64,000 nucleotides of DNA, taken from NCBI RefSeq assembly GCF_000316685.1, contig NC_019680.1:2047501-2111500 (forward strand), in the 5' to 3' direction. A model generated the notes under the pieces. The model worked only from the letters and a program-made list of their open reading frames with translations. It made no database searches and was not told the DNA's origin. This DNA comes from Synechococcus sp. PCC 6312 (lineage in GTDB: Bacteria > Cyanobacteriota > Cyanobacteriia > Thermosynechococcales > Thermosynechococcaceae). The position numbers were made by a program, and so were the translations under genes. Shown here piece by piece: positions 1,826 through 36,540 of the stretch (positions are counted from its first letter, which is position 1; each line of letters begins with the position of its first letter).

Positions 1826-1931
1826 CTAAATTTCTCCAAATACAACTCATTGATCAGGCAAAAGTTAAAAGCAAAATCTAAACCTGAAAATCTAGAGATT
1901 TACTTCTAGCTTCTGCCTCATTCCTGGCTAC

Positions 1932-3032
1932 CTAAACATCGCTAATGGCATCAATGGCCTGGGAGATGCGCCGAAAATCAAACCCCATCGCCCGTAAAGC
2001 GTGCCAGAGATGACCTTGAAGGAAAAAGAATGCCAAGAAGAAATGGGCATTAGCCAACCAGGCCCGGGCCGTGTGTACGCCATAGGGTAAATCCGTCGCA
2101 GTGTCAGCAAAGTAGGGACAAATCCCCAGCCGAATTTCTAAGGGCGGGCCGTAAAACTCCGCAGGATAGGCCAGGGTGTTGACCGCACAAAAATAAGCTG
2201 CTACAAAACCAGCCAAGGCAATCCCCCCCAAGGAATAGGACAGAATTGCTTCTCCCGAAAAAATAAGCACTTTGCGGGCCCAGGGTAAGGGGGGAACTAA
2301 GATATGCCAAACTCCGCCCCCAATGAGCAACAAGCCCACATAAATATGTCCACCAACTAAATCTTCAAGGCTACTAATGCTCGCAAAGTGGGTTTGATAA
2401 CTGTAGATCACTAGGGGGTCAAGGGTCGGTTGGCTAATGATGCGGACGGTTTCCGTGGTGGCATCGTAGAGTCCGCCCCAATACATGGCCTTAGCCACGA
2501 GCAATAAAGCTCCAGCCCCCAAAAAGAGCAGATGATGGCCGAGAATAATCCCTAACTGCTTGGGATCATCCCAGGCAAAATGAAAGCGGCGGGCCTGGCC
2601 TTTAGCAGTTTCAAGACTTTCAGGTGCTCGCAGAAGATGGAACAGTGCCCCCGCCCCCAAGACCGCCGAAGCAATCAGATGCACAACCCCAACCACAAAA
2701 TAGGGATAGGTATCTGTGACTTGTCCACCATCGCCCAGCCCCAGGCCCAGGGTGGCCAAATGCGGTAGCAGAATCAGGCCCTGCTCCCCCATCGGTTGAC
2801 TGGCATCAAACAGGGAAATTTCATAGAGGGTAAACGCCCCGGCCCAAAAAACCGTGAGTGCCGCTTGGGCCACATGGGCCGAAATAAACAACCCAGACTT
2901 TTCCGCAAAGCGCGCATTACCGGCCCACCAGTCATAGTTAACGGTTGCCTGGCCATAGGTCTGCATCCCAGCACTAGCAGTTATGGGTCTGGGTGGGGAT
3001 GATCCAGGTAAGGGATCCGTTGCCATAGTCAT
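1932..3032 (-). CDS. isiA: Iron-stress chlorophyll-binding protein IsiA (CP43')
   Basis: A six-helix chlorophyll a antenna protein of the CP43/Pcb family. It forms rings around photosystem I under iron limitation and also dissipates energy. The conserved blocks [56 protein letters not shown], and [17 protein letters not shown] are all present, as is the C-terminal [13 protein letters not shown]. The large lumenal loop of true CP43 is missing, as expected. ATG at 3032 is preceded by GAGGTG, so it is preferred to the GTG at 3047. This start gives about 22 extra residues before the MQTYG at which typical IsiA begins (internal ATG at 2966). Confidence 0.96.
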
Positions 3033-3254
3033 AGAGATACACCTCACTAATGAGAATAGTTTTGATCAATTTTGGGAAGCCGCTCAAATCCGTTTTGACA
3101 AAGAAGGATAACTGACAATTCCGTCCCCCTTGGACAGCCCTGAAAATAATCGAGATCAAGGCACAAAATGAAACCCCTCGGTGTGAACCCAGGCTTTTCG
3201 ATGTAATTCAGTCTTAGGAGACGCGAATTTAGGAGAGAACAATTATCCTTCTAT

Positions 3255-22164: not shown

Positions 22165-23175
22165 TTAGGTGGTTTTCTTTTCAAAGTTAGGGACATTGGG
22201 ATAGACATCCGCAATATTTTCCCGAATCGTATTGGGATCGCTATTGGCAAAGTTAGCAATGTCAATTTTCTTCATGAAGGTCACGCCTGGTTTTTTAATG
22301 ATGTACTCCAGAAATTCGTTAAAGGTTTGGACGTGTTCCGGGCGTTGGAGGCGATCATGCATTGTCACGGCCATCATCCGGCGGCGGTAAGCAGATTCTT
22401 CATAGAGGCGGTCAAAGGAGTTTTTCAGTTCAATTAAATATTGTTCTGATGAGAAAAACCGCGCTTCATAGGCCCGAATGTCATTCATATAGACCGCATA
22501 GGGAACAACAACAATCGTTTTCCCGTTGAGCAATTTGACAATAAAGGGTTCATCCCGGCTGACATCATCAATGTGATAGACAAATCCAAGTTCATTCAAG
22601 ACATTCAGCACATTCACGGATCCCCGCAGGCCGGGAGCGTTATATCCCACAGCCCGTTGTCCCGTCACCTTGAGGATCATATCCACATTGCGCTGAATGA
22701 AGGCTTTTTCCTGCTCATAGGACATATTAAATTCGTTGTCCCAGTTCCAGCCGTGGGCCGCCGCTTCATGACCCCGTTGGACAATTTCCCTCGCCCGATC
22801 CGGATACATTTCGACAGTGCGGCCGGACATATGGGAGGTGATTTTAATCTTGTACTTGTCCAAAACATCTAAAATCCTTGGCACGCCTTCCGTGTAGCCA
22901 TAGCGGTACCAGGTAATGGTCGGCATATCGTAATAGCCAGGGGGAGGGGTGAAGTTACCAAAGGGAGTCGGGGCCCCGGTGGCAGGTTGTGCGCCCGTTT
23001 CAAACATTAAGGACAAAGACATCGGCATCCGAATCCCATCGGGCCAAAACTGTCCGGGTTTAACCGTATTAGAACGCGACTGGGCCTGGGCGGGACGAGG
23101 TTGCATGAAGCTATAGGTGGCCAAGGCTCCGGCTCCAGCAGCTAATCCCTGTTTGAATAAATCACGACGGTGCAT
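22165..23175 (-). CDS. Tat-exported NodB/PuuE-like polysaccharide deacetylase
   Basis: A 336-residue protein with a twin-arginine signal (HRRDLFKQGLAAGAGALA, cleavage near AQA). The mature part is a NodB-type barrel of the PuuE/allantoinase-like branch: ITSHMSGRTVEMYPDRA, RGHEAAAHGWNWDNE (metal His region), GYNAPGLRGSVNV and TMHDRLQRPEH. The family removes acetyl or amide groups from sugars or cyclic amides. The first NodB metal Asp is not obvious, so the chemistry is uncertain. It is the last gene of a seven-gene minus-strand operon, 15 bp after the hydrolase. Confidence 0.85.
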   Translation of the reverse strand: MHRRDLFKQGLAAGAGALATYSFMQPRPAQAQSRSNTVKPGQFWPDGIRMPMSLSLMFETGAQPATGAPTPFGNFTPPPGYYDMPTITWYRYGYTEGVPRILDVLDKYKIKITSHMSGRTVEMYPDRAREIVQRGHEAAAHGWNWDNEFNMSYEQEKAFIQRNVDMILKVTGQRAVGYNAPGLRGSVNVLNVLNELGFVYHIDDVSRDEPFIVKLLNGKTIVVVPYAVYMNDIRAYEARFFSSEQYLIELKNSFDRLYEESAYRRRMMAVTMHDRLQRPEHVQTFNEFLEYIIKKPGVTFMKKIDIANFANSDPNTIRENIADVYPNVPNFEKKTT

Positions 23176-23190
23176 GGTGAACTCTCTCCT

Positions 23191-24066
23191 TTAAACGCTG
23201 AACGTGTCTGAGATAGCCTGAAAAATTTCTTCCGGGGCTTCTTCCGGGATGTAATGACCACATTGCTCAATGAGATAACTGGTCAGATTTTCACAGTAGG
23301 GAGTCATGCCGTTGTAGATTAGGGTTTTCGTGGCAAATTCACCCCCCATGGCAAAAATCGGCTGGGTAAACTTGGTTTCTGGAGCGAGGGTATTGGCGGC
23401 CATGGTTTCTTCGAGGGCGGCGTACCAGAGAAATCCAGCTTTCATCGCTCCCGGCTGACTGTAGTATTTAGCGTAATAATCCATCACCTCTGGGGTTAGG
23501 TTTTGTTTACGCTTAGATTTATTGGTGAAATACCAACTGAGATACTCCAGTTCTTTCCCCGCAACTAAACTATCGGCTAAATCCGGGACTTTGTGGAAAT
23601 AGAACTGCCAGACTTTGGCCGCATTCACCACCCCAAAAAAGTCAGGACTGACCAGGCCAGGAATTGCGGCATCAATCAACCCGGCCCCGAGAATCGACTC
23701 AGGAAAGGTTTTCAGCACCGTAAACGCGACCCAGGCCCCGACATCATGGCCTACCAAGTAAAACTGATTAATTTGCTTCAATGCAAGGAAATCTTTAATC
23801 TCTTGGGCCGCCGTGCCACAGTCATAGGGGCCAGCCGGAATATCAGAGTCGCCTTGCCCACGCATATCGAGGGAAATAACCCGGAATTTTTCGCCCAACT
23901 GTTGCCAAAGTAATCGCCAGACATAACAGGTTTGGGGCCAGCCACCGAGGAGCAAGAGGGTCGGGCCTTGGCCGCCTTCAATGGCATGGAGGGTGACATC
24001 GCCAACGGTCGTAAACGTATGCTCAAAGCCAGGGGGCAAATCAATCGGAATAAACGGGTCTCTCAT
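23191..24066 (-). CDS. Alpha/beta hydrolase, epoxide hydrolase/dehalogenase type
   Basis: A 291-residue cytoplasmic hydrolase. The nucleophile elbow is GHDVGAW, with Asp as nucleophile, as in epoxide hydrolases and haloalkane dehalogenases. The oxyanion segment LLLGGWPQTCYVWR and the C-terminal His in EQCGHYIPEEAPEE complete the site. The natural substrate is unknown. Its ATG overlaps the stop of the upstream isomerase gene by four bases (ATGA), which indicates translational coupling inside the operon. Confidence 0.9.
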   Translation of the reverse strand: MRDPFIPIDLPPGFEHTFTTVGDVTLHAIEGGQGPTLLLLGGWPQTCYVWRLLWQQLGEKFRVISLDMRGQGDSDIPAGPYDCGTAAQEIKDFLALKQINQFYLVGHDVGAWVAFTVLKTFPESILGAGLIDAAIPGLVSPDFFGVVNAAKVWQFYFHKVPDLADSLVAGKELEYLSWYFTNKSKRKQNLTPEVMDYYAKYYSQPGAMKAGFLWYAALEETMAANTLAPETKFTQPIFAMGGEFATKTLIYNGMTPYCENLTSYLIEQCGHYIPEEAPEEIFQAISDTFSV

Positions 24067-24923
24067 CGGGTTGCCTGATAGGTGTGCTGTAAAAATTGGA
24101 GGCCGTCACGGGCAATTTGTTCACTGCTGTCTGCCAAGGGTCGCCAAACGCGGGCTGCGGTGGCCAGGGCTTGATCCTCACGATTAAAACTTTCAATCAC
24201 AATCCAGCCATTGAAGTTAAGGGTATCCAAGGCTTGAAATAAACCAGGCCAGGGCATGGTATCACTTCCTGGAATTCCCCGATCACAGGCACAGGCATGG
24301 ACATGGAAGCATTTGTCACCGGCCGCCAAGAATGCCTTCACAATATCTTTTTCTTCAATATTCATGTGGAAGAGATCCAGCAATAGGCCCAGTTGGGGGG
24401 AACCAATATGATTCAGTAACTCTAACCCTTGGGCAACGGTATTTAGGGCATAACCTTGGAAACGGTTTAGAGGTTCGATGGCCAGTTTGATGTTGGTCTG
24501 ACTTAAGGCATCCGCAATTTGAGTCAAGGCCTGGTGGAGTCGGGGCGTTTCTTCCGGTTGCAGGGGTTTGCCAGTTAAGTAACTCACAGGATGAATCAGT
24601 GGGCCAGAGAGTTGCGTAATGTCACAGGCCTGGGCAAAGGTAATCGCATCTTTGACGTACTGCACTGACTTTTGCCAACATTCTGGATCATCGCTGGTTA
24701 AAGACAATCCCGTCGGCATACTCGTACAAAGGGTGATTTCAATCCCATAGCGATCTCGATAAGCTTTAATCGTGTCTGGGGAAATATCAGCGAAATAATG
24801 GGTCGAAATTTCTACGCCATCAAATCCCCAGGCCTGGGCTTGCTCAAAAATATAACTCTCGTTCCCGAAAAACTCCTGTTTCCAGATGAACGAATGCACA
24901 CCAAAACGAATTGCAGCGACCAT
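24063..24923 (-). CDS. Sugar phosphate isomerase/epimerase family TIM-barrel protein
   Basis: A 286-residue xylose-isomerase-like/AP-endonuclease-2 barrel. Metal-binding positions of the family appear in LAIEPLNRFQGYALNT (Glu), LLLDLFHMNIEEKD (Asp, His) and the late WIVIESFNRED (Glu). This matches tagatose/psicose 3-epimerase-like and hydroxypyruvate-isomerase-like enzymes; the exact sugar cannot be read from sequence. It starts 2 bp after the upstream cupin stop and overlaps the downstream hydrolase start by 4 bp. Confidence 0.88.
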   Translation of the reverse strand: MVAAIRFGVHSFIWKQEFFGNESYIFEQAQAWGFDGVEISTHYFADISPDTIKAYRDRYGIEITLCTSMPTGLSLTSDDPECWQKSVQYVKDAITFAQACDITQLSGPLIHPVSYLTGKPLQPEETPRLHQALTQIADALSQTNIKLAIEPLNRFQGYALNTVAQGLELLNHIGSPQLGLLLDLFHMNIEEKDIVKAFLAAGDKCFHVHACACDRGIPGSDTMPWPGLFQALDTLNFNGWIVIESFNREDQALATAARVWRPLADSSEQIARDGLQFLQHTYQATR

Positions 24924-24925
24924 GC

Positions 24926-25726
24926 TTACCCACAGGTTACGGATTTGTCACCGTTGTTAAAGGCATTGATCGTTTCAATTACCTTGGACAGGGTTTGCTC
25001 ATTCTGAAGCTTAGCCAAATTCTTTGGGAACTTATCACTAATACTGGTAACGTACTGCATCATAAACGAACTTTGATTAATCCCAAATTTCGGGGCCTGG
25101 CTGACAAAAGCATTGCGTTGTTCTTGGGTGACTGTCGGCAAATTGTTGATGTCCGTAATATGGGCCCCCACGGCTGAGAAATATTCTCGCATTCCACCAT
25201 CGTGATATTCAAAGTCTGGAGCGATCTCATCCCGCACCCAAATCATCACCATCGGCAAGGTTTCATTAGTCGGGTTCACAAAGCCATGCATATAGGTGTG
25301 GGGTGAGTAAACGACTTGCTTCGGTTTCATTTCAAGACTGTAGAGGGGAGCCCGGCCGGCCGCTTCAATAGTGGGTGGCTTACTCATATCGGGAAACTTG
25401 CGCTCACTATGGAAAATTTCCATGCCTCCTTTTTGGGGCCAGAAAAATTCATTGATGTAGTAGTGGACATGGGGCATTGGGCCGCCGCCGGGGGGAATTT
25501 GGGCCGTCGTAATCGCAAAACCAAAGTCTTTTGTGGAGCAGGAAGCAATTTCAAAGATTTCGTTAGCTGGGGTCAGAATTCGCAAGGGATCGTCTAACTT
25601 TGGCATCGGAATATTGTCAATCGAATAGGGAGCCTTAGCCCAACTGGCCTGGGTCTGGAACAGAATCACTCCAGCAATAACAACCACAAAAACCAGTGAT
25701 GCAACCCAAGTTCTAATTTTCAACAT
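24926..25726 (-). CDS. Exported cupin protein (paralogue 1)
   Basis: A 266-residue protein with a signal peptide (MLKIRTWVASLVFVVVIAGV, cleavage near AKA). The cupin barrel has its metal ligands in PHVHYYINEFFW (H, H, E) and a later His in YMHGFVN. Cysteines in the segments IASCSTKD and SVTCG are conserved with the paralogue at 25931 and may form a disulfide. ATG 25726 is preferred over TTG 25735. Function unknown; extracytoplasmic metal-dependent isomerase or oxygenase activity is possible. It follows the XapX gene by 9 bp. Confidence 0.85.
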   Translation of the reverse strand: MLKIRTWVASLVFVVVIAGVILFQTQASWAKAPYSIDNIPMPKLDDPLRILTPANEIFEIASCSTKDFGFAITTAQIPPGGGPMPHVHYYINEFFWPQKGGMEIFHSERKFPDMSKPPTIEAAGRAPLYSLEMKPKQVVYSPHTYMHGFVNPTNETLPMVMIWVRDEIAPDFEYHDGGMREYFSAVGAHITDINNLPTVTQEQRNAFVSQAPKFGINQSSFMMQYVTSISDKFPKNLAKLQNEQTLSKVIETINAFNNGDKSVTCG

Positions 25727-25735
25727 GATCCACAA

Positions 25736-25912
25736 TTATCCTTGTCCGAGTTTTTGTTTAATAAATGTGTAGGTAACTTGTCCCAATAAACAGGCGGCAG
25801 CGGCGACTAATCCTTCAAAGGGAGGAACTGGCAACGGTAGGCGGAAAAAACCAAAAATTACCCCTAATATCCAGCCGCCTAAGATTGCATAGCCCAACTG
25901 TGGATTAAACAT
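25736..25912 (-). CDS. XapX-domain small membrane protein
   Basis: A 58-residue gene starting at ATG 25912 with GGGAGAG about 10 nt upstream. The product has two hydrophobic helices, ILGGWILGVIFGFF and EGLVAAAACLLGQVTY. The loop RLPLPVPPFEG between them carries the Pro-Pro typical of XapX-domain (DUF1427) miniproteins. Function is unknown in this family. It sits between two paralogous cupin genes (18 bp after one, 9 bp before the other), so it is surely co-transcribed. It may be a membrane partner of the cupins. Confidence 0.85.
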   Translation of the reverse strand: MFNPQLGYAILGGWILGVIFGFFRLPLPVPPFEGLVAAAACLLGQVTYTFIKQKLGQG

Positions 25913-25930
25913 GCTAAATCTTGCTCTCCC

Positions 25931-26731
25931 TTAAAAACAACTTACCGAAGTATCGCCCTGATTAAAGGCCTGGATCGTATCAATGATTGCCATTAGGTCG
26001 GAATCATTACTGCCTTTAGCCAAAATTAGGGGCGGATGACTATCCACCTGGGAGACATATTTTAAGAAATAGTCACTTTGGTTAATGCCATACTGGGGCG
26101 CGTGGGTGACAAATTCTTCCTTGGACTCATCTGTAATCGCAGGCAAGTGATTAATATCAGGAATTGGAACTCCCACATCTTGAAAATACTCCCGAATCCC
26201 ACCATCGTTAAAGGGATAGTCAGGGGACGTTAGATCCTGTAGCCAAATAAATGTTAGTGGGCGTGTTTCATTGGTAATGTTCGTAAACCCATGCACCCGA
26301 TTTTTCGGCCCATAAACAATCTGGTTGGGAACGGTATCAACGGTATAGACTTTGGCTCGACCAGCATCTTCATCGGTAGCGGGATGGCTTAGGTCTGGAT
26401 ATTCCTGCACACTTTGAAACAACTCCAAGCCTCCTTTCGGTGTCCAAAACCATTCATTAGTATGGTGATGAATATGAGGCAGTGGCCCCGCTCCGGCAGG
26501 AATTTGAGCATCAGCCAAGGTAAAGCCCTGGGTTCCCCGATTACAAGTGGCAAACGTGAATATCTCTCCAGCGGGGCCTAAAATTTGCTCCGGTTTTTCG
26601 ACTTTAGGAAATGGCAGATCGGTAATAGAATCAATCGCCCAGGCCGGGGAATTATCAAAACCCATGATCCCCAACATTAAAATGATAGTTATAAGCAAAG
26701 ATAAACTAGTTCTAAACCAGTGCTTGAGCAT
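25931..26731 (-). CDS. Exported cupin protein (paralogue 2)
   Basis: A 266-residue relative of the 24926 cupin, similar along its whole length. It has a signal peptide (LLITIILMLGIMGF, cleavage near AWA) and cupin ligands in PHIHHHTNEWFW and RVHGFTN. The two cysteines (FATCNRGT, SVSCF) are kept. SD GAGGTG lies about 12 nt before the ATG. The pair probably arose by tandem duplication with the XapX gene left between. A heteromeric complex in the periplasm is possible. Confidence 0.85.
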   Translation of the reverse strand: MLKHWFRTSLSLLITIILMLGIMGFDNSPAWAIDSITDLPFPKVEKPEQILGPAGEIFTFATCNRGTQGFTLADAQIPAGAGPLPHIHHHTNEWFWTPKGGLELFQSVQEYPDLSHPATDEDAGRAKVYTVDTVPNQIVYGPKNRVHGFTNITNETRPLTFIWLQDLTSPDYPFNDGGIREYFQDVGVPIPDINHLPAITDESKEEFVTHAPQYGINQSDYFLKYVSQVDSHPPLILAKGSNDSDLMAIIDTIQAFNQGDTSVSCF

Positions 26732-26784
26732 AGCAGGAAATCACCTCAAAAATGCTGTAATCAAGTCGAGTATGAGCATATCAA

Positions 26785-27222
26785 CTATAGGGTTTTAGTC
26801 TCAGCCACACTGTAAACCTTAATCTCTGGCGTACCATTAAATAACGGCCCGGCTTTCTCCATAAATTCCTGAAAGTAGGGAGTTTGAAAATGATGATCTA
26901 AGGCCGCCTGATTCCGCCACTCTTCAAAATATAAAATGGTGTTAGGAGCGGTTTGATCTTCATAAAAACTATAGGAAACTGAGCCAGGTTCTTGGCGGGA
27001 GAGGATCAGACACTTTTCGGCCAACTGTGTAAATTCTTCCTTTGTCCCTGGTTTGATTTTGATTTTTCCGGCAACCACAACTAAAGAGGGAGCTTCACGA
27101 ACTGTGGCCTGAGCCGGACTGGGCAAAACTAAGACGGTACTGAGACCAATCACCAGAGCCAACAAAAGCCCAACCATAATTGAGAGCAGCCTAGGCCAGC
27201 CATGTCTTTGAGCATTATTCAT
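26785..27222 (-). CDS. Exported antibiotic-biosynthesis-monooxygenase (ABM) domain protein
   Basis: First gene of the seven-gene operon. From ATG 27222 it encodes 145 residues: a signal peptide (LLSIMVGLLLALVIGL, cleavage near AQA) and a ferredoxin-like ABM domain of about 95 residues. The domain includes VVAGKIKIKPGTKEEF, CLILSRQEPGSVSYSFYED and LYFEEWRNQAALDHHF. Cytoplasmic relatives (YgiN, LsrG) act on quinones or autoinducers without cofactor. Export of such a domain is less usual. GGGAG precedes 27222; the ATG at 27273 is an alternative. Confidence 0.8.
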   Translation of the reverse strand: MNNAQRHGWPRLLSIMVGLLLALVIGLSTVLVLPSPAQATVREAPSLVVVAGKIKIKPGTKEEFTQLAEKCLILSRQEPGSVSYSFYEDQTAPNTILYFEEWRNQAALDHHFQTPYFQEFMEKAGPLFNGTPEIKVYSVAETKTL

Positions 27223-27762
27223 TATGATATTTACTCCCAAGAGCCTTGCCAGAGTCAGTATAACCTTCAACATATGTAATGCTCATAGCCTAAGTTACGC
27301 CCTCTCGATATTAATACTGACTGTGGAGATCATTATAAAGATTTACCACTGGCTTTAACGGACACAATTCACAAAAATTAAAGTCTCCATTTCCTTAGAA
27401 TGATCGCCTACTCAACAAGATTAAGTAAAAGTTAATTTTTGGTCATTATCCGAGGAGTTTCGGGACTTCATGGTATGCTTAGCATTAAATTGTTGGTTTA
27501 ACCACTTTGGAGTATTTTGAGGCAGGTTAAAATTGACTATATTCACTTATAAAGTGTTAACAATATTCATGATGTTTAACCTTGCCCTGCGGAGGCTTTT
27601 AGAATCTTAACAATTACTTGTTATTTATTTATATTCTTGGTTCTCATTACAAGCCGGATCATAAATTAATCGCAAGTTTATTGAGAAAACCTAAAGCTGT
27701 TCCCATTTTTCCAGAATCTAGATTTGACTTGTGACTGCACTCTTAAAAGGACGCTGTTCTCT
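27223..27762. other. Divergent regulatory spacer between exported-cupin and icfG operons
   Basis: About 540 bp, AT-rich, between two outward-facing operons. It holds a cluster of symmetric elements (27495-27586, described separately) and no gene that I could support. It must carry both promoters. Confidence 0.6.
27495..27586. promoter_or_regulatory. Operator-like cluster of GGTTAAA/TTTAACC elements
   Basis: GGTTTAACC at 27495-27503 is itself a palindrome apart from its central base. GGCAGGTTAAA (27521-27531) and TTTAACCTTGCC (27575-27586) form an inverted repeat with one base inserted. Inside the repeat lie CACTT/AAGTG and TGTTAACA dyads. The arrangement suggests a regulator binding site shared by both operons. 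Confidence 0.45.
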
Positions 27763-28326
27763 ATGGCCCGTACCAATTATTACGCCAATCTAAAAGCCAA
27801 TTACTCCCAACCCGGCCTGGTTCCCGATACCCAGAAAGCCGAACTGATTGCCGAGGGATTACGGATTGTTGGCCTGAAAGAAGCTACCTTGCCCACCATT
27901 GGCCCTGACTACACCCTGGAGCAAATTGAGCAGGAAAACAAAGACTGGTGGCCAACCCACTGTGAAGCCCTGCGCCAAGGCCGGGGAGATATTTTAACCG
28001 GCGAATACCGGGATGATCTCGTTTATTTCTGTCAGGATGGCCCCTACTCTGGCCTGGAGCAACAAAAAGAGCGGGAACAACATTGGTGGGCCCTAATTGC
28101 ACAGCCGGGCGTGACCATGGTTTGGCCAATTGTCATGTTTTGGGGTGAGCACACCTTTTTTGAATGGAAATGTATTGATGATGTCACCCATGAAACCATT
28201 GCTAAGGGGAATGTCACCTGGGTTCGGCGCGGGCATCGGGGCGGCTGTTACTTAAAAACCGAACAACTCACCTTCTACAGGGATGTCTTTGCGCCCGAAA
28301 GCTTGCTCAAATTAATCACGACCTAA
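27763..28326 (+). CDS. SnoaL/NTF2-like protein (slr1852-like), first gene of icfG-type operon
   Basis: A 187-residue protein starting at ATG 27763 after AAAAGG; the TTG at 27724 is less likely. The C-terminal half (MFWGEHTFFEWKCIDD, VTWVRRGHRGGC) has the strand pattern of NTF2-like barrels. By position and gene order it corresponds to slr1852 of the Synechocystis icfG cluster, as I recall that locus. No catalytic function is known. It is 23 bp before the CMD gene. Confidence 0.75.
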   Translation: MARTNYYANLKANYSQPGLVPDTQKAELIAEGLRIVGLKEATLPTIGPDYTLEQIEQENKDWWPTHCEALRQGRGDILTGEYRDDLVYFCQDGPYSGLEQQKEREQHWWALIAQPGVTMVWPIVMFWGEHTFFEWKCIDDVTHETIAKGNVTWVRRGHRGGCYLKTEQLTFYRDVFAPESLLKLITT

Positions 28327-28349
28327 AAATTTGCCAGGAGAATCAGTCC

Positions 28350-28691
28350 ATGAGTCCATTTGCCAATGCGGTGCTCGATGACCAGGCCCTGCAAGACGGG
28401 TTAAATAGTATCAATCCCAAGTTTGGTGACTTTTGTACCAGGGTGGCCGGCGAGGCCTGGGGATTGCCGCTGATTGATCAAAAAACCAAAGCCTTGATCA
28501 CCATTGCTGTGGATGTGGTCAACCAAGATCAAACCGGGCCGGGGAACCCCTTCAAAGCCCATGTGACGATGGCGATGCAGCAGGGAGCCACTCGGGAAGA
28601 AATCGAAGAACTCCTGCTGTTTATGTGTGTTTATGCTGGGTTTAATAAAGCGGCGGGCTGTTTTGGCACCCTAAAGGAAATGTTCGAGTAA
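28350..28691 (+). CDS. Carboxymuconolactone decarboxylase family protein (slr1853-like)
   Basis: A 113-residue all-helical CMD/AhpD-like protein. GEAWGLPLIDQKTKALITIAV and the HVTMAMQQGATREEIEELL helices are diagnostic. The redox CxxC of AhpD is absent (only C-V-Y-A), so it is probably decarboxylase- or scaffold-like and not a peroxidase. The SD AGGAG lies 10 nt before the ATG. It is followed by the DJ-1 gene after 36 bp. Confidence 0.88.
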   Translation: MSPFANAVLDDQALQDGLNSINPKFGDFCTRVAGEAWGLPLIDQKTKALITIAVDVVNQDQTGPGNPFKAHVTMAMQQGATREEIEELLLFMCVYAGFNKAAGCFGTLKEMFE

Positions 28692-28727
28692 TCCATTCAC
28701 CTCATAACGTTCTAAAAAAAGGCAACT

Positions 28728-29327
28728 ATGACCGCAACTAAGGGCAAAATCGGGGTTCTGATCGAAGAACATTTTGATGCCACCGAGTACAAATGGTTTA
28801 ACGAATATTTCCCCGCCCACGGCTATGAAGTGGAATATCTCAGCCATCTTTGGGGACAGCCGCAACTCACCTTTGGCTCTAACCCTGAAAATGATGTGAT
28901 TGAATTTCATGCCACCGTCACCACCGAAGTCAATGATGTTGAACCCAGCGACTACAAGGGGATCATTGCCATTGGGGCTTATGCCATGGATCGGTTGCGC
29001 TATCAGGTGAAGGTGAAAAAAGGCGGTAAAAATGAAGCGCCAGCGGTGGAGTTTCTCCGGAAAGCCATGGCCACTGAAGGGGTAAAACTGGGAACGATTT
29101 GCCATAGCCTCTGGTTATTTTGTGCCGATCCCGACTTGCTCAAAGACCGGAAAGTCACCTGCGCCCATAATATTGTCTGTGATGTCGAAAATGCCGGAGC
29201 CGATGTTGTGATCGAAAACGATGAAACCGTGGATCTCGTCATTGATGGCAACTTAATTACAGGCAAACATCCCGGCATGATTGAAGAATTTGTCAAAGTC
29301 TTTGTCGAGCAACTCGATGCCGCTTAG
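28728..29327 (+). CDS. DJ-1/PfpI family protein (slr1854-like)
   Basis: A 199-residue class I glutamine-amidotransferase-like fold. The nucleophile elbow cysteine is in GTICHSLWLF, with the family Glu near LIEEHFDATEY. Relatives act as glyoxalases, deglycases or chaperones under carbonyl stress. The neighbouring sugar epimerase and glycogen debranching genes would fit sugar damage control, but that is inference. Confidence 0.9.
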   Translation: MTATKGKIGVLIEEHFDATEYKWFNEYFPAHGYEVEYLSHLWGQPQLTFGSNPENDVIEFHATVTTEVNDVEPSDYKGIIAIGAYAMDRLRYQVKVKKGGKNEAPAVEFLRKAMATEGVKLGTICHSLWLFCADPDLLKDRKVTCAHNIVCDVENAGADVVIENDETVDLVIDGNLITGKHPGMIEEFVKVFVEQLDAA

Positions 29328-29358
29328 TCCCGCTTAGTCCTCCTTTGATTCCAACCCT

Positions 29359-31182
29359 ATGGCACCCCAAATTAACTTCCCCTTTTCCGACTTGATTGCG
29401 GGCTATGTAACCAGCTACGACACCGAAACCGACATTTTTGGCCTGAAAACCTCTGATGGCCGGGAATTTCCGGTCAAACTGAGTCCAATGGCCTATGCCA
29501 AGGTGATTCAAAACTTTGATGAAGGCTATCCCGATGCCACGAGTACGATGCGGGCCTGGTTAACACCGGGACGGTTTCTCTTTGTCTATGGGGTGTTTTA
29601 TCCCGATACCGATGTTTTTGATGCCAAGCAAGTCGTCTTTGCCGGTAAAAAAGAAGATGATTATGTCTTTGAAAAGCAGGACTGGTGGATTCAGCAGATC
29701 AACGCCCTCGGTAAGTTCTACGTCAAGGCCCAATTTGGCCAAGAGGAAATTGATTACCGCAACTATCGGACGGATTTGTCAGTGAGCGGGGAACGCTCCT
29801 CAGTCAAATTTCGCCAAGAAACCGATACTATTTCCCGTCTGGTTTACGGCTTTGCCACGGCTTTTATGATGACCGGGGATGAAGTGTTCCTAGAAGCAGC
29901 AGAAAAAGGCACCGAATATCTCCGGGATCATATGCGCTTTGTGGACCGGGATGAGGACATTATTTACTGGTATCACGGCATTGATGTCCAAGGGGAAAAA
30001 GAACTCAAAATCTTTGCCTCTGAGTTTGGCGACGATTACGATGCGATTCCGGCCTACGAACAGATCTATGCCTTAGCCGGGCCAATCCAAACCTATCGCT
30101 GCACTGGAGACCCCCGGATTCTGTCGGATGCCGAACAAACCATCAAGCTGTTTGATAAGTTCTTTCTCGACCAGTCTGAATACGGTGGCTATTTCTCCCA
30201 CATTGACCCCTTGATGTTGGATCCTCGCAGTGACTCCCTCGGTCGCAACAAAGCTCGGAAAAACTGGAACTCCGTTGGGGATCATGCACCGGCCTATTTG
30301 ATCAATCTTTGGTTGGCTACGGGTGAGCAGAAATACGCCGATATGTTGGAGTACACCTTCGACACGATTGAAAAGTATTTTCCCGACTATGAAAACAGTC
30401 CCTTTGTTCAAGAGCGGTTCTATGAAGACTGGTCCCACGATACAACCTGGGGCTGGCAGCAAAATCGGGCAGTGGTGGGCCATAACCTAAAAATTGCTTG
30501 GAACCTGATGCGGATGCAGAGCCTCAAACCTAAGGAACAGTATGTGGGCCTGGCTCAGAAAATTGCGGATCTGATGCCCTCGGTGGGAAGTGATCAACAA
30601 CGGGGCGGCTGGTCAGATACGGTCGAGCGGTTACTCACCAATAATAGTAAATTCCATCAGTTTGTCTGGCATGATCGCAAGGCCTGGTGGCAACAGGAAC
30701 AAGCCATTCTCGCCTATTTGATTTTGGGGGGTATCCTTGAGCATGATGATTATCACCGTCTAGGTCGAGAAGCTGCGGCCTTCTATAACGCCTGGTTCTT
30801 AGACTTGGAGGATGGCGGTGTTTACTTTAATGTCCTAGCTAATGGGATTTCCTATCTGGCTAGGGGGAATGAGCGGGCCAAGGGCAGCCACTCCATGAGC
30901 GGCTATCACTCCTTTGAACTCTGTTATTTGGCGGCGGTTTATACCAACTTCCTGATCACCAAGCACCCAATGGACTTTTACTTTAAGCCCCTACCCAATG
31001 GCTTCCCAGATCGGATTTTGCGCGTTTCACCGGATATTTTGCCACCGGGATCGATCTTGCTTGAGTCTGTGGAAATTGACGGCAAAGCCTACACTGATTT
31101 TGATTCCCAGGCCCTGACGGTGAAATTGCCCGAGACAAAAGAACGGGTCAAGGTGAAAGTTCGTTTAGCCCCCAAGTCCTGA
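29359..31182 (+). CDS. AGE-family epimerase/isomerase (slr1855-like)
   Basis: A 607-residue protein with an alpha6/alpha6 barrel like N-acylglucosamine 2-epimerase. The barrel spans about residues 130-530, with KFRQETDTISRLVYGFA, GDHAPAYLINLWLATGE, and HNLKIAWNLMRMQ. The last segments include KGSHSMSGYHSFELCYLA. It is longer than the usual 400 residues because of an N-terminal beta-rich domain of about 110 residues and a C-terminal strand-rich tail. The sugar is unknown. It ends 4 bp before the STAS gene, so it is tightly coupled. Confidence 0.85.
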   Translation: MAPQINFPFSDLIAGYVTSYDTETDIFGLKTSDGREFPVKLSPMAYAKVIQNFDEGYPDATSTMRAWLTPGRFLFVYGVFYPDTDVFDAKQVVFAGKKEDDYVFEKQDWWIQQINALGKFYVKAQFGQEEIDYRNYRTDLSVSGERSSVKFRQETDTISRLVYGFATAFMMTGDEVFLEAAEKGTEYLRDHMRFVDRDEDIIYWYHGIDVQGEKELKIFASEFGDDYDAIPAYEQIYALAGPIQTYRCTGDPRILSDAEQTIKLFDKFFLDQSEYGGYFSHIDPLMLDPRSDSLGRNKARKNWNSVGDHAPAYLINLWLATGEQKYADMLEYTFDTIEKYFPDYENSPFVQERFYEDWSHDTTWGWQQNRAVVGHNLKIAWNLMRMQSLKPKEQYVGLAQKIADLMPSVGSDQQRGGWSDTVERLLTNNSKFHQFVWHDRKAWWQQEQAILAYLILGGILEHDDYHRLGREAAAFYNAWFLDLEDGGVYFNVLANGISYLARGNERAKGSHSMSGYHSFELCYLAAVYTNFLITKHPMDFYFKPLPNGFPDRILRVSPDILPPGSILLESVEIDGKAYTDFDSQALTVKLPETKERVKVKVRLAPKS

Positions 31183-31186
31183 GTCT

Positions 31187-31516
31187 ATGAACATTGACAT
31201 CAAAGCCGAGGATGGATTTCAGTTAGTCACCCTAGAGGGGGAAGTGGATGCCAATACTGCACCCCAAGTCCACCAGGCCATCATGCCCCTCGCTGTACCG
31301 GATACCAAAATCATCTTGGATATGACCGAGGTTCCCTATATGTCCAGTGCCGGGTTACGGTTACTCCTGTTTCTCTATCGTCAAACCACAGCCAATTCAG
31401 CCCAACTCGTCTTGGTCGGCCTCTCTGAGGAACTGATTGATACCATGTCTGTCACAGGATTTTTGGAGTTTTTTACGATTCGCGACACCCTAGACGCAGG
31501 CAAGGCGGCCTTGTAA
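31187..31516 (+). CDS. STAS anti-sigma factor antagonist (slr1856-like)
   Basis: A 109-residue STAS protein. The phosphoacceptor region is VPYMSSAGLRLLLFL, where a Ser is expected to be phosphorylated by the HATPase kinase and dephosphorylated by the PP2C enzyme of the operon. In Synechocystis the equivalent Slr1856 is a substrate of the Slr1861 kinase and IcfG (recalled). It sits 3 bp before glgX. Confidence 0.93.
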   Translation: MNIDIKAEDGFQLVTLEGEVDANTAPQVHQAIMPLAVPDTKIILDMTEVPYMSSAGLRLLLFLYRQTTANSAQLVLVGLSEELIDTMSVTGFLEFFTIRDTLDAGKAAL

Positions 31517-31519
31517 ATC

Positions 31520-33649
31520 ATGTCCATTGAACGGATTGATATTCACCCTACCCATCAGATCAACGGCCGCAAACTCCGCTGTGGTCAACCCTTTCCCTTT
31601 GGGGCCATGCTCGTTCCCGGTGGGGTCAATTTTGCGATCTATTCCAGTCATGCCACGACCTGTACCTTAGTCCTCTTTAACAAAAAAGAACCTCAACCCT
31701 TTGCCGAGATACCCTTTCCTGAGGCCTTTCGGATTGGCAATGTCTTTTGCATGACCGTGTTTGACCTGGATTACGAAAATCTGGAATACGGCTATCGGAT
31801 GGATGGTCCCAATAATTTCCAGGCCGGGCATTGGTTTGATACGAGCAAAATTCTGTTAGATCCCTACGCCAAAATTGTCAGTGGTCGGGATGTCTGGGGT
31901 GTCCAACCAGATTGGAACGATATTTACCAACACCGGGGCCGAATTAGTTTTGATGACTTTGACTGGCAGGATGATCGTCCCTTAGATATTCCCCTCGAGG
32001 ACATGATCATCTATGAAATGCACGCCCGCGGCTTTACCAAAGATGAATCTTCCGGGATCAAAGAAAGTCATCGGGGTACCTTTGCTGGGATTCGGGACAA
32101 AATTCCCTACCTGCAAGAACTAGGTGTGAATACCATCGAGTTAATGCCAATCTTTGAGTTTGATGAGTTTGAAAACAGTCGGCGGCATCCCGAAACTGGC
32201 GAACTCCTGCTCAATTATTGGGGCTACAGCACGGTTAACTTTTTTGCGCCCAAGGCAGGCTATGCAGCTACTGGCAAATTTGGGATGCAAACCGATGAAC
32301 TCAAAACCCTGATCAAAGAACTCCACAAGGTGGGAATTGCCGTTATTTTAGACGTGGTTTTTAATCACACGGCTGAGGGGAATGAGCGCGGGCCCACGAT
32401 CTCGTTCCGGGGGATTGATAACAAAACCTATTACATGCTTACCCCAGAGGGATATTACTTTAACTTCAGCGGCACCGGCAACACCCTGAATTGTAATAAT
32501 CCAATTGTCCGGGGCATGGTGCTGGATTGTTTGCGCTACTGGACAGCAGAGTTTCATATCGATGGCTTTCGCTTTGATTTAGCTTCTATCTTGGGCCGCG
32601 ATCCCTGGGGTTTTCCGTTGGCCAATCCACCACTGCTGGAAACCTTAGCCTTTGATCCAATTTTGGCCCGCTCGAAACTAATTGCCGAGGCCTGGGATGC
32701 CGGGGGACTCTATCAAGTGGGATCTTTTCCTAATTACGGGCGTTGGGCGGAATGGAACGGTAAATATCGGGATTCGGTGCGTCAATTCATTAAAGGCGAT
32801 CTGGGCCTGGTCGGGGAAATGGCCCAACGGATACAGGGATCTCCGGATCTCTATCAAGCCGCTGGCCGTCCCCCTTCGACTTCGATTAATTTCATCACGG
32901 CCCACGATGGGTTTACCCTAGCTGATTTGGTTTCCTATAACGGTAAACATAATGAGGCCAATGGCGAACACAACAATGATGGAGCGAATGATAATTACAG
33001 TTGGAATTGCGGTATTGAAGGCCCCACGGATAATATTTATGTCCAGGCCCTGCGCCATAAACTAATGCGAAATGCGATGGCGATTCTGATGGTGAGTCAG
33101 GGTGTGCCGATGATCCTAATGGGGGATGAATTTGGTCGGACGCAATACGGAAATAACAACACCTATTGCCATGATTCCCCGTTGAATTGGTTGAACTGGA
33201 ACTTACTCGAAAAAGAAAAAGACTGGTTTCGCTTTGTTCAATGCTGTATTGCCTTTCGCCAGTCCCATCCAGTGTTACGAAACCCTGAACATTACCAAAA
33301 CCGTGACTATTTAGGGACAGGGTTGCCAGATATTAGTTGGCATGGAGTTAGGGCCTGGCATGCGGATTGGTCTAATGAAAGTCGGGTGCTGGCTTTTATG
33401 CTCTGTGGTCACCACGCCAAAGGGGGCAAAGTTAAAGATAATCAAATCTATGTGGCGATGAATATGCACCATGAAAGCCTCTGGTTTGAATTACCTGCCA
33501 CATCTGTGGGTAAAGCTTGGTATGTGTTTGCCAATACAGGTGCTCATCCACCTGAGGATATTCACTGGCCTGGGTCAGAACCGCGTTTAGACTCGCAATC
33601 TGGATTATTAGTTGGGGATCGGAGCCTAGTCATTTTATTGGCAAAATAA
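31520..33649 (+). CDS. glgX: Glycogen debranching enzyme GlgX (isoamylase type)
   Basis: A 709-residue GH13 enzyme that cleaves alpha-1,6 branches of phosphorylase-trimmed glycogen. An N-terminal CBM48 (about residues 15-130) precedes the barrel. The conserved regions are VVFNHTAEG, nucleophile GFRFDLAS, acid/base LIAEAWDAGG and transition-state Asp AHDGFTLADLV. Residues NDNYSWNCGIEG and MGDEFGRTQYGNNN are typical for GlgX. Placement between two STAS genes links glycogen breakdown to a sigma-factor partner switch, as in the icfG cluster (slr1857). Confidence 0.96.
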   Translation: MSIERIDIHPTHQINGRKLRCGQPFPFGAMLVPGGVNFAIYSSHATTCTLVLFNKKEPQPFAEIPFPEAFRIGNVFCMTVFDLDYENLEYGYRMDGPNNFQAGHWFDTSKILLDPYAKIVSGRDVWGVQPDWNDIYQHRGRISFDDFDWQDDRPLDIPLEDMIIYEMHARGFTKDESSGIKESHRGTFAGIRDKIPYLQELGVNTIELMPIFEFDEFENSRRHPETGELLLNYWGYSTVNFFAPKAGYAATGKFGMQTDELKTLIKELHKVGIAVILDVVFNHTAEGNERGPTISFRGIDNKTYYMLTPEGYYFNFSGTGNTLNCNNPIVRGMVLDCLRYWTAEFHIDGFRFDLASILGRDPWGFPLANPPLLETLAFDPILARSKLIAEAWDAGGLYQVGSFPNYGRWAEWNGKYRDSVRQFIKGDLGLVGEMAQRIQGSPDLYQAAGRPPSTSINFITAHDGFTLADLVSYNGKHNEANGEHNNDGANDNYSWNCGIEGPTDNIYVQALRHKLMRNAMAILMVSQGVPMILMGDEFGRTQYGNNNTYCHDSPLNWLNWNLLEKEKDWFRFVQCCIAFRQSHPVLRNPEHYQNRDYLGTGLPDISWHGVRAWHADWSNESRVLAFMLCGHHAKGGKVKDNQIYVAMNMHHESLWFELPATSVGKAWYVFANTGAHPPEDIHWPGSEPRLDSQSGLLVGDRSLVILLAK

Positions 33650-33675
33650 CTGCACACATATTATTGAGAGGAACT

Positions 33676-34002
33676 ATGGCATTTACAATTGCAGCAGAAG
33701 TTTTAGGGGACTTGGGTAAGGTTACATTGATCGGTGAGTTAGATGGCAGCACAGCGCCCCTATTCAAGGAGAAAATTGAAGAGATCGCCAAGGCAGAAAT
33801 TAAACGCTTAGTTTTACTGATGGCAGAACTGGAATATATGTCGAGTGCTGGGTTACGGGTTTTGATTTTTGCCAAACAAAAAATGGGCACTAGTGTCAAT
33901 ATCTATATTGTTGGGGCCCAAGAAATGGTGCAGGATACAATTGATCAAACAGGTTTGCACCAAAGCTTTTATTTAGTGGATACCTTTGACTTTGCTAGTT
34001 AA
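33676..34002 (+). CDS. STAS anti-sigma factor antagonist (slr1859-like)
   Basis: A 108-residue STAS protein starting at ATG 33676 with GAGAGGA just upstream. Phosphoacceptor region LEYMSSAGLRVLIFA. It is a close relative of the STAS protein at 31187, and the two MSSAGLR motifs are identical. It ends before a possible terminator, with icfG beginning 143 bp later. Confidence 0.92.
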   Translation: MAFTIAAEVLGDLGKVTLIGELDGSTAPLFKEKIEEIAKAEIKRLVLLMAELEYMSSAGLRVLIFAKQKMGTSVNIYIVGAQEMVQDTIDQTGLHQSFYLVDTFDFAS

Positions 34003-34010
34003 ATTAGGCC

Positions 34011-34033
34011 TAGGCATTCAATACCTATTTTTT
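34011..34033 (+). terminator. Possible intrinsic terminator between STAS and icfG
   Basis: TAGGCAT-TCA-ATACCTA makes a short stem with one mismatch and is followed by six T. The stem is weak, so it may only attenuate transcription into icfG. Confidence 0.4.
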
Positions 34034-34145
34034 GCTGCTTATTTAACTTTAGATGTCATATCTTTAGATTAATGAATAGCCGATACCTTCAACTGTCATT
34101 GAAATTAGCCCTTCAGCCAGGCCTGGATACTAGGGTTAATGGCCT

Positions 34146-36119
34146 ATGACTATTTCTCAAGATGCGAAGCCGATTAAAAGTCAAATTCAAACATTTCGGC
34201 AAGGCGTGCTTAAAAAATTAACCCAGATCAAGCACAACAACCCCATTGCCCGCTCAATTCAGTTACGAATTGTCTTTTTACTGCTCATTTGCCTCATTCC
34301 AGTGTCCTTAGGTGGAATTTATTGGCTTGATCTCTACACAGAGGAGCGGTTAATTAAGTTGGCTGAACTAGACCTCGTCAGTCGGGGCAAGTTACTGGCC
34401 GAACTGATGGGCAGACTCGATCGTGAGCGCCGCCTTGATACCGAGTTTTTAGCCTCTCATCCAGCCGTTATCCAGTTTAATCAAAAAGAATCTGGGGTTC
34501 TCCTCCAGCATTTTGCTCAGTTTCATCACTGGGAAGGGAATTTTAGCGTATTTAATATGCAAGGAAAGTTAATTGCCGAGAGTCCCAAAAATTCTTTCCA
34601 GGCTTTTGACAAGATTCCAACATGGCTTTCAGAATCTCAAGCTCGCGGCGGGCCTATGAACCGCCTGACAAGAAACACCACTATTGAAGACAGCAAAGAT
34701 TGCTTGATTATGCCAATAGTATCTCCAGAAAGCCAGAAACAAGTAGGAGTATTATTGGAGTGTATTCCGCTCAGTGCCATTTCAAGGTTTGTTAATGATA
34801 TCGGTAAATCAATTGATGTTGATCGGATTATTTTTGTCAATTATCAGGGTTGGATTTATGCGGATACTGGCAACATCGCCTATAGTCAATTAGAAAATCG
34901 TCAGAATTTGCCAGCAGAAAAACGAGTTCTGTCTGGGGAACAGCGCGTCACCTATACTGACGGAAAGTTTATCTTTACAATGCCGATTAAATATCGAAAT
35001 AATCGAACATGGGGATTGATTTTAATTAATACTGAAGAAACAATTCAGTCAGCCATTGCCGATGTTAATCGGGTGGGTTTAATTCTAGTGGCCTTCATTG
35101 GGATCATTGTTGCCTATAGTTCCTGGAAGATTATTCATCATAGCACCGTCCCGATTACTGCTCTAACCCAGGCCACCAGCGCGATTGCCGATGGAAATTT
35201 GGACTATGTGATTGATATTCACCGCCAAGACGAGATTGGGACATTGGCGCAAAGCTTTATGAATATGCAGTCCCGACTTAAAAATCTGATTGATCAAGAG
35301 GTTAAAGATGCTGTTTACCGCTTGGAATTAGAAAAAGGACGGCAAATTCAGCAAGATTTTCTCCCCGAGCATCTACCGGAAGCAGCGGGTTGGGATATTG
35401 CGGGTTTATTTGAACCAGCCCGCTCTGTGTCTGGAGATTTTTACGATGCGTTTACGTTAGATGACAATTACCTTGGCCTGGTGATTGGCGATGTTTGCGA
35501 TAAAGGTGTCGGTGCAGCGATGTTTATGGGCCTCTTTCGGAGCCTCTTGCGGGTCTTCTCTGGGGCGGGGATGTCATCAGAAATTTACATTGATAATCGA
35601 GGCTTAAATGATGATCCTACAGATATTTTGGACGGAATGGATCCGCTCGTGCATCAGTTTCTCAAGGCAGTTTACTTAACTAATGACTACATTACAACTG
35701 AACATTCCAGCATGGCGATGTTTGCGACCCTATTTTTCGGCGTTCTTGATATTAAAACTGGAACGTTAACCTACATCAATGCTGGCCATGAGCCAGTTTA
35801 TGTCCTCAACCAGGCCGGCATTAAACACCAACTAAAGTCCTCGGGGCCAGCAGTGGGGATGATGCCGAAATCTACGTTCCCCAGCCATCACATTAATCTT
35901 GAGTTAGGTGATCTTTTAGTGGGTTATACCGATGGTGTGACGGATGCCCGTTGCCCCAATGGGAAGTTTTTTGGGCGTAAGCGACTTGAACAATTACTCA
36001 TTCAGCATTATGAGGATCATGTCAATATTCTTGAATGTGTGCGCTCAGAGTTGTTAGACCATATTGCTGATGCAGTTCAGTTCGATGATATTACGATGTT
36101 GGTAGTTTATCGGAATTAA
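34146..36119 (+). CDS. icfG: IcfG-like membrane PP2C (SpoIIE/RsbU) phosphatase
   Basis: A 657-residue sensor phosphatase. Two membrane helices (about residues 40-62 and 308-328) bracket an extracytoplasmic sensor. A HAMP domain follows (VPITALTQATSAIADG to QSRL). The C-terminal PP2C domain has RSVSGDFYDAF, VIGDVCDKGVGAAMFM, GYTDGVTDARCPNG and the final FDDITMLVV, supplying the metal-binding Asp residues. It should dephosphorylate the two STAS proteins of this locus. In Synechocystis icfG (slr1860) is needed to balance inorganic carbon and glucose use. Confidence 0.93.
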   Translation: MTISQDAKPIKSQIQTFRQGVLKKLTQIKHNNPIARSIQLRIVFLLLICLIPVSLGGIYWLDLYTEERLIKLAELDLVSRGKLLAELMGRLDRERRLDTEFLASHPAVIQFNQKESGVLLQHFAQFHHWEGNFSVFNMQGKLIAESPKNSFQAFDKIPTWLSESQARGGPMNRLTRNTTIEDSKDCLIMPIVSPESQKQVGVLLECIPLSAISRFVNDIGKSIDVDRIIFVNYQGWIYADTGNIAYSQLENRQNLPAEKRVLSGEQRVTYTDGKFIFTMPIKYRNNRTWGLILINTEETIQSAIADVNRVGLILVAFIGIIVAYSSWKIIHHSTVPITALTQATSAIADGNLDYVIDIHRQDEIGTLAQSFMNMQSRLKNLIDQEVKDAVYRLELEKGRQIQQDFLPEHLPEAAGWDIAGLFEPARSVSGDFYDAFTLDDNYLGLVIGDVCDKGVGAAMFMGLFRSLLRVFSGAGMSSEIYIDNRGLNDDPTDILDGMDPLVHQFLKAVYLTNDYITTEHSSMAMFATLFFGVLDIKTGTLTYINAGHEPVYVLNQAGIKHQLKSSGPAVGMMPKSTFPSHHINLELGDLLVGYTDGVTDARCPNGKFFGRKRLEQLLIQHYEDHVNILECVRSELLDHIADAVQFDDITMLVVYRN

Positions 36120-36123
36120 TCCT

Positions 36124-36540
36124 ATGGAAACCCTGGTTTTGCCCGCCGAGTTAGACTCTTTGGAACCAATTGGTAAATATGTCCTGAATGTGGCCAAAGT
36201 TGCTGGACTTTCCCAAAAGAAAGCCTATCGCTTAAGGTTAGCAGTGGACGAGTTAGCGACAAACATTATTAACTATGGTTATGCGAATCAATCCTCCCCC
36301 GTTGGTCTGGAAGTCAGTGCTGAACTTGCGCCAACGTTTTTGAAAATTATTTTAATTGACTCTGGTCTGGCCTATGATCCACGGGAGCGTAACTTTGATG
36401 AATCTATTTTAGAAGAACCCATTGAAGAACGTCCTATTGGTGGTTTGGGCATTTTTCTAGCCCTACAAAATGTGGATGAATTCAGTTACCAGGTTCAGAG
36501 TGATAAGAACATTAGCTCCTTTTTAGTTCATATCGAATAG
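36124..36540 (+). CDS. RsbW/SpoIIAB-like anti-sigma serine kinase (slr1861-like)
   Basis: A 138-residue GHKL ATPase. N box AVDELATNIINYGY, G1 region LIDSGLAYDPRE, G2 region IGGLGIFLA. It phosphorylates STAS antagonists and binds a sigma factor in the partner-switch scheme. It lies 4 bp after icfG. No sigma factor gene is in the window, so the target must be elsewhere. Confidence 0.92.
   Translation: METLVLPAELDSLEPIGKYVLNVAKVAGLSQKKAYRLRLAVDELATNIINYGYANQSSPVGLEVSAELAPTFLKIILIDSGLAYDPRERNFDESILEEPIEERPIGGLGIFLALQNVDEFSYQVQSDKNISSFLVHIE

Follow-up and report, generated by a model that had tools for sequence, protein, structure and literature searches.

A counterpart of the Synechocystis sll1783 operon with twin CucA-family cupins, divergent from an icfG-type operon, in Synechococcus sp. 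PCC 6312

The seven genes at positions 22165–27222 of a 64,000-nucleotide stretch of Synechococcus sp. PCC 6312 (contig NC_019680.1; this whole stretch is called the window) are almost certainly the orthologue of the sll1783 operon of Synechocystis sp. PCC 6803, functioning as a single unit with the icfG operon that diverges from it. Their biochemical role can be proposed only tentatively: a carbon-status-controlled route handling a small sugar- or glycan-derived compound is possible, with somewhat less than an even chance of being correct. Taken jointly, the identity and unity of the operon and this role make up the best explanation as a whole, to which we assign a probability of about 0.5. 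The window belongs to a cyanobacterial genome of 3.72 Mb in two contigs. All seven open reading frames (ORFs) lie on the minus strand, and the upper end of the run is at 27273 instead of 27222 if an upstream ATG is used. In the order of transcription, they are the following:

26785–27273 (alternative start 27222), minus strand: ABM, exported antibiotic-biosynthesis-monooxygenase-fold protein with a hydrophobic N-terminus, counterpart of Sll1783 (PF03992, 65.7 bits)
25931–26731, minus strand: CUP1, Sec-type exported CucA-family cupin in the position of Sll1784 (phmmer to 2xl7, SLL1785, E 8.2e-78)
25736–25912, minus strand: XapX-like membrane miniprotein of 58 residues (TIGR03510, 21.4 bits, under the 27.8 cut-off)
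24926–25735 (ATG alternative 25726), minus strand: CUP2, Sec-type exported CucA orthologue in the position of Sll1785 (phmmer to 2xl7, E 4.6e-110)
24063–24923, minus strand: TIM, cytosolic ketose-3-epimerase-like TIM barrel (PF01261, 149.8 bits; aligned to 3vni)
23191–24066, minus strand: ABH, cytosolic alpha/beta hydrolase of the Cif/epoxide hydrolase-dehalogenase type (PF00561, 64.8 bits; 7jqz, E 1.1e-59)
22165–23175, minus strand: DEAC, Tat-exported CE4-fold protein of the PuuE (allantoinase) group (PF01522, 91 bits; RRDLFK motif; TIGR03212, 133 bits)

The seven ORFs and their close spacing, described in the original prediction as gaps of 2–53 bp or a 4-bp overlap, were borne out. The distances are 53 bp for ABM–CUP1, 18 bp for CUP1–XapX, 0 bp for XapX–CUP2 with the TTG start of CUP2 (9 bp with the ATG at 25726), 2 bp for CUP2–TIM, −4 bp (overlap) for TIM–ABH, and 15 bp for ABH–DEAC. 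Export or membrane features were found in five of the seven proteins (ABM, CUP1, CUP2, XapX, and DEAC), which corrects the earlier count of four. At the default threshold, Pfam matches were obtained for ABM, TIM, ABH, and DEAC, and none for CUP1, CUP2, and XapX. Comparison with a Synechocystis genome (G076) showed synonymous sites near saturation and far lower non-synonymous change in all seven genes, indicating that each of them has been maintained. Promoter and terminator scans gave results no better than those for shuffled sequence.

To follow the gene order, 386 genomes of the phylum were surveyed; strong cupin matches occurred in seven, the window's own included, and the six other loci were read. 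G076 carries all seven genes in order, divergent from the icfG-side genes SNOAL, CMD, DJ1, AGE, and GLGX as in the window, and an HbpS-like gene follows DEAC there, whereas nothing follows it in the window. A second Synechocystis genome, G093, has six of the seven in the same order and with the same divergence, DEAC being replaced. Pseudanabaena SR411 keeps ABM-CUP-XapX-CUP-TIM-ABH, followed by a Tat DctP-type binding protein and a beta-propeller, with CMD, SNOAL, and DJ1 on the operon's own strand. In G274, TIM, ABH, SNOAL, CMD, a cupin, XapX, DJ1, AGE, and GLGX are all on one strand, while G308 keeps ABM, one cupin, TIM, and ABH, its icfG-type genes lying far from the operon. Gene content, order, and divergence agree with those of the sll1783 operon (sll1783–sll1785 and sll1304–sll1307, divergent from icfG slr1852–slr1862) in 7/7 genes for G076 and, for content and order, 6/7 for G093 and Pseudanabaena SR411, a likeness judged from other Synechocystis loci, not from the PCC 6803 sequence. 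The recurrence of the order in other genera and the large excess of synonymous over non-synonymous change show that the arrangement is more than chance. The original prediction was to be refuted if the order proved specific to this strain and its members were not co-expressed; this refutation fails, as the order is shared and joint regulation of the counterpart genes is reported for Synechocystis.

The TIM gene and the CucA-type cupins have an identical distribution, occurring in the same 7 of the 386 genomes, and all these carriers are among the 25 genomes with a DJ1 orthologue (hypergeometric 2e-9, uncorrected for kinship; the carriers fall in five genera, and their kinship inflates this raw probability). 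The genes could still be independently useful ones that share the icfG regulatory region without a common pathway. The last gene of the operon does differ between genomes, the icfG-type genes of G308 are remote, and DctP, propeller, and HbpS genes occupy another site in the window's own genome. However, in each of the seven carriers, which span five genera, TIM and ABH remain near at least one cupin, also where the icfG genes are no longer nearby, and we regard such a loose neighbourhood as very improbable. The separate site in the window's own genome is about 0.75 Mb away (L088:4501-10352; G000:C1 about 1302500-1308351) and holds a DctP-type binding protein, beta-propellers, and an HbpS-like gene, all of which stand inside or beside the operon in other genomes.

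Published work on Synechocystis points in the same direction. In a literature table, sll1783 and slr1852 are divergent neighbours, and the sll1783 operon has been reported to share its regulation with icfG and to have a link to polysaccharide processing. A cyabrB1 knockdown study, to go by its title, reportedly deals with the joint regulation of the two operons. The sll1783 operon is salt-repressed together with slr1852–1862 (PMC8670252), and sll1783–sll1785 are among consistently regulated genes of unknown function (PMC2924297). Conserved order, co-occurrence, and published co-regulation argue for one functional unit with the icfG operon; the proposal that the seven genes act together gains support in particular from the order kept in Synechocystis and Pseudanabaena and from the joint salt repression. 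The unit, originally drawn around the seven genes, reaches further, to the icfG genes at 27724–36540. It was also held that no named pathway has this gene set. No pathway has indeed been defined, but the operon itself is named and partly studied in Synechocystis. The published numbering leaves a small puzzle: Sll1305 is ketose-3-epimerase-like in one paper and Sll1306 a deacetylase in another, so there is no obvious number between them for the hydrolase.

Both cupins belong to the CucA family, resembling Sll1785 (PDB 2xl7) across the full mature protein and retaining all four ligands of its 3-His-1-Glu metal site; the match between CUP2 and the Sll1785 crystal sequence runs over the full length. 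Among solved structures, SLL1785 was the sole relative of either cupin with a convincing score. The predicted ligands of CUP1 are H86, H88, E93, and H147 (numbered from the first Met), in the motifs PHIHHHTNEW and VHGF, and the corresponding motifs of CUP2 are PHVHYYINEF and MHGF. A hydrophobic N-terminal stretch, AxA-like sites, and the lack of a twin Arg indicate Sec export of both. Compared with each other, the two proteins are 44% identical; judged by this they are paralogues, flanking the 58-residue membrane protein as originally described. The arrangement differs from CucA in that two copies surround an XapX-like gene, and copper binding is predicted here from sequence. No cupin relative was found in viral contigs, and plasmids yielded four distant ones. 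One of these, on the conjugative Pantoea plasmid pJZ29-02 (L046:7974-13589), is a CucA-like cupin without an obvious signal peptide, accompanied by two FAD monooxygenases, a TetR regulator, and an MFS pump. In another genome, G191 (L045:8441-11119), three tandem exported CucA-like cupins precede a Tat-signal protein resembling a flavin oxidoreductase.

CucA is a Sec-exported Cu(II) cupin described as a major Cu(II) protein (PMC4192464), and its secretion is tied to copper efflux (PMC4192464; PMC9764255). The twin cupins and XapX could accordingly serve mainly in storing or directing copper within the periplasm or lumen, the other genes being passengers. A copper store would not be expected to co-occur so strictly with a TIM-barrel epimerase, to be fused to ABM domains in other icfG clusters (see below), or to be sited beside icfG, and no copper transporter or chaperone is recognisable in either gene set. 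We therefore consider this explanation quite improbable.

ABM is 45–54% identical to the Synechocystis genes at the equivalent position and lies near the YgiN and LsrG structures. Deletion of the monooxygenase in Synechocystis reportedly caused flocculation and more exopolysaccharide (PMC7690835). The assignment of ABM as LsrG (AI-2 isomerase) was rejected, as it scored 29.3 bits against a curated cut-off of 135 and is exported. The miniprotein next to the cupins stays below the XapX cut-off given above, and its homologues (7/7) match the model weakly as well, the best with E 5.9e-6. It is 68–84% conserved in five Synechocystis and Pseudanabaena loci and 48% in L044, and at 84% to Synechocystis it exceeds every other protein of the operon in that comparison. 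No XapX relative appeared in the plasmid search, and no role for XapX was found in the XapX/DUF1427 literature.

DEAC had been labelled a Tat deacetylase, which is misleading, since the protein groups with PuuE and has no CE4 metal triad. A CE4 polysaccharide deacetylase acting on peptidoglycan or chitin was rejected because the Asp-His-His triad (TFDD, H-x3-H) is absent; MFET and HGWNW stand in its place, the Trp of HGWNW replacing the second metal His as in PuuE. Like the PuuE allantoinase (PDB 3cl6), DEAC has the HGxxW motif, and together with 25 cyanobacterial PuuE-like proteins it shares 26 invariant columns, active-site positions included. The top fold match of its model (pLDDT 78.7) was 3cl6, with TM 0.74/0.82, a supporting and not independent result, since the alignment behind the model included PuuE-like proteins and favoured this match. 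PuuE is the best family for DEAC, yet its 133 bits on TIGR03212 are far under the 424.6 cut-off, whereas two cyanobacterial PuuE-like proteins reach 476 and 548 bits; its identity to the cyanobacterial PuuE-like set is 23–29%. Being exported by Tat and so far below the cut-off, DEAC is a PuuE-like enzyme, not an established allantoinase. The cavity of PuuE is reduced, its substrate is a small cyclic imide, and the usual metal is described as unbound, unlike in its relative HpPgdA (PMC3084791). The substrate of DEAC is more likely a small molecule.

Two cytosolic enzymes lie between CUP2 and DEAC. TIM has the catalytic and metal residues of the D-psicose/D-tagatose 3-epimerases (3vni, 2hk0) intact at E150, D183, H209, and E244. 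ABH is, as far as its sequence tells, an Asp-nucleophile enzyme of the epoxide hydrolase/dehalogenase type closest to Cif-like enzymes, with E about 1e-39 to the chains of the CFTR inhibitory factor (Cif). Its predicted active site comprises the nucleophile D108 in GHDVGA, H271, H158, and Y215. The last two align with positions of 7jqz and presumably have the catalytic roles of their Cif counterparts. Unlike Cif and the Cif-like epoxide hydrolases (7jqz, 3kd2), ABH has no export signal.

The other side of the unit consists of the intergenic region and the plus-strand genes:

27274–27765, no strand: divergent intergenic control region, where the operons diverge as in Synechocystis
27724–28326, plus strand: first icfG-type operon gene, slr1852-like (SNOAL), 85–86% identical to Synechocystis, no Pfam match
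28350–28691, plus strand: carboxymuconolactone-decarboxylase-family protein (CMD), slr1853-like (PF02627, 51.4 bits)
28728–29327, plus strand: DJ-1/PfpI protein (DJ1), slr1854-like (PF01965, 59.4 bits)
29359–31182, plus strand: AGE-family epimerase-like protein, slr1855-like (PF07221, 45.9 bits)
31187–36540, plus strand: ORFs for a STAS anti-sigma antagonist, the GlgX isoamylase, a second STAS-like protein, the SpoIIE-type phosphatase IcfG, and a HATPase kinase, slr1856–slr1861-like (STAS, SpoIIE+HAMP, and HATPase_c_2 matches)

The first of these genes starts at 27724 (TTG) or 27766 (ATG), which sets the icfG-side bound of the intergenic region; alignment of this region revealed no convincing conserved shared element. 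The published icfG cluster contains the isoamylase slr1857, the antagonists slr1856 and slr1859, the phosphatase IcfG slr1860, and the kinase slr1861 (PMC12329169), and the plus-strand genes of the window match this set, GlgX being 84% identical to Synechocystis. In G187 (C1:1236292-1240385) the AGE orthologue is broken into two parts with about 2.3 kb between them, a pattern that an insertion could have produced.

Some icfG clusters that lack the seven-gene operon encode a 949-residue protein made of one cupin and two ABM domains, beside CMD and a separate ABM gene, and in G145 and G187 a cupin–ABM protein of 1137–1155 residues stands beside SNOAL and CMD. Both fusions that were scanned end in DUF4114. 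The fusion genes are located as follows:

L083:3666-6515, L084:3603-6452, L085:5840-9307, and L087:4677-8090, in genomes G099, G195, G145, and G187: cupin and ABM fusion proteins of 949–1155 amino acids

Domain fusion and the shuffling of genes between the two sides suggest a shared function of both, and the one-strand arrangements of SR411 and G274 indicate that they are one gene set. That function might be the detoxification of electrophiles, in which the quinol-monooxygenase-like ABM, the Cu cupins, a Cif-type epoxide hydrolase, DJ-1, and CMD would remove reactive carbonyls, epoxides, or quinones arising from carbon overflow. The proximity of ABM to YgiN and LsrG, the Cif-like predicted active site of ABH with its Asp nucleophile, the DJ-1 and CMD neighbours, the company of the Pantoea plasmid cupin, and the listing of slr1853/slr1854 among ethanol-responsive genes would all suit it. 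Against it, CMD has no CxxC motif, partners such as the ketose-3-epimerase, the AGE epimerase, and GlgX suggest sugars, and deletion of ABM reportedly affected exopolysaccharide. On balance, detoxification appears somewhat unlikely.

The divergent cluster (22165–27273 and 27724–36540) was likely acquired by horizontal transfer, as it is far closer to Synechocystis than PheS predicts and is absent from the sampled genomes of the same family. PheS is 75–78% identical to same-family genomes and 69–70% to Synechocystis, while AGE, 87% identical to Synechocystis, was absent from all three same-family genomes tested, and cupin, TIM, and DJ1 orthologues were absent from all five sampled. Loss of the cluster in the relatives is the alternative. 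Elsewhere in the window (1316–3047) a flavodoxin adjoins an IsiA/Pcb-like chlorophyll-binding protein; by eye, their translations resemble an iron-stress pair.

Returning to the proposed route for a sugar- or glycan-derived compound, the two Cu-type CucA-family cupins and the exported ABM would oxidise or rearrange the compound outside the cytoplasm, with the XapX miniprotein in the membrane alongside them. The Tat-exported PuuE-type enzyme could then hydrolyse a C–N or ring bond of the small molecule. In the cytosol, the Asp-nucleophile hydrolase and the ketose-3-epimerase-type enzyme would feed the product back into sugar metabolism, possibly together with four proteins of the icfG side, namely the AGE-type epimerase, DJ-1, CMD, and GlgX. 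Published work connects the IcfG partner-switching proteins with carbon and glucose regulation (PMC12329169). The sugar- or lactone-modifying route outside the cytoplasm suggested originally agrees with the exopolysaccharide change reported for the monooxygenase mutant (PMC7690835) and with the intact site of the ketose-3-epimerase type, the substrate itself being conjectural. The sister genomes have a DctP-type protein in the DEAC slot. Such proteins often bind carboxylates, which hints at an acidic small molecule as the compound.

Several observations weigh against this route. TIM reaches 165.4 bits on NF051856 (D-psicose 3-epimerase), well under the 300 cut-off, and ABH is under every specific family cut-off. 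The DEAC slot is not constant, being filled by the Tat DctP-type binding protein and beta-propeller in sister genomes, so not all seven genes need belong to one pathway. The accessible parts of the CucA literature mention no enzymatic activity, and CucA may simply hold copper. A bolder version, which we regard as unlikely, would make the operon the output arm of IcfG partner switching and a pathway outside the cytoplasm that depends on Cu cupins and serves one specific carbohydrate-derived metabolite, the regulator sensing and the operon acting on the same compound; XapX would be the dedicated membrane partner of the CucA cupins, and the exported PuuE-type enzyme would have a new amidohydrolase activity.

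The operon is thus already a named and partly studied one in Synechocystis; what is added here are the cupin–ABM fusions in other icfG clusters, the strict cupin–epimerase co-occurrence, and the reassignment of DEAC to PuuE. CucA is a standard example of how a protein acquires its correct metal, and the portions of its literature available to us state no substrate for it. Likewise, the link between icfG and carbon and glucose regulation dates back to 1994, and the corresponding portions define no output. The constant company of CucA cupins and one epimerase, mostly beside icfG, together with the fusions, yields a short list of enzymes that would be expected to share one substrate.

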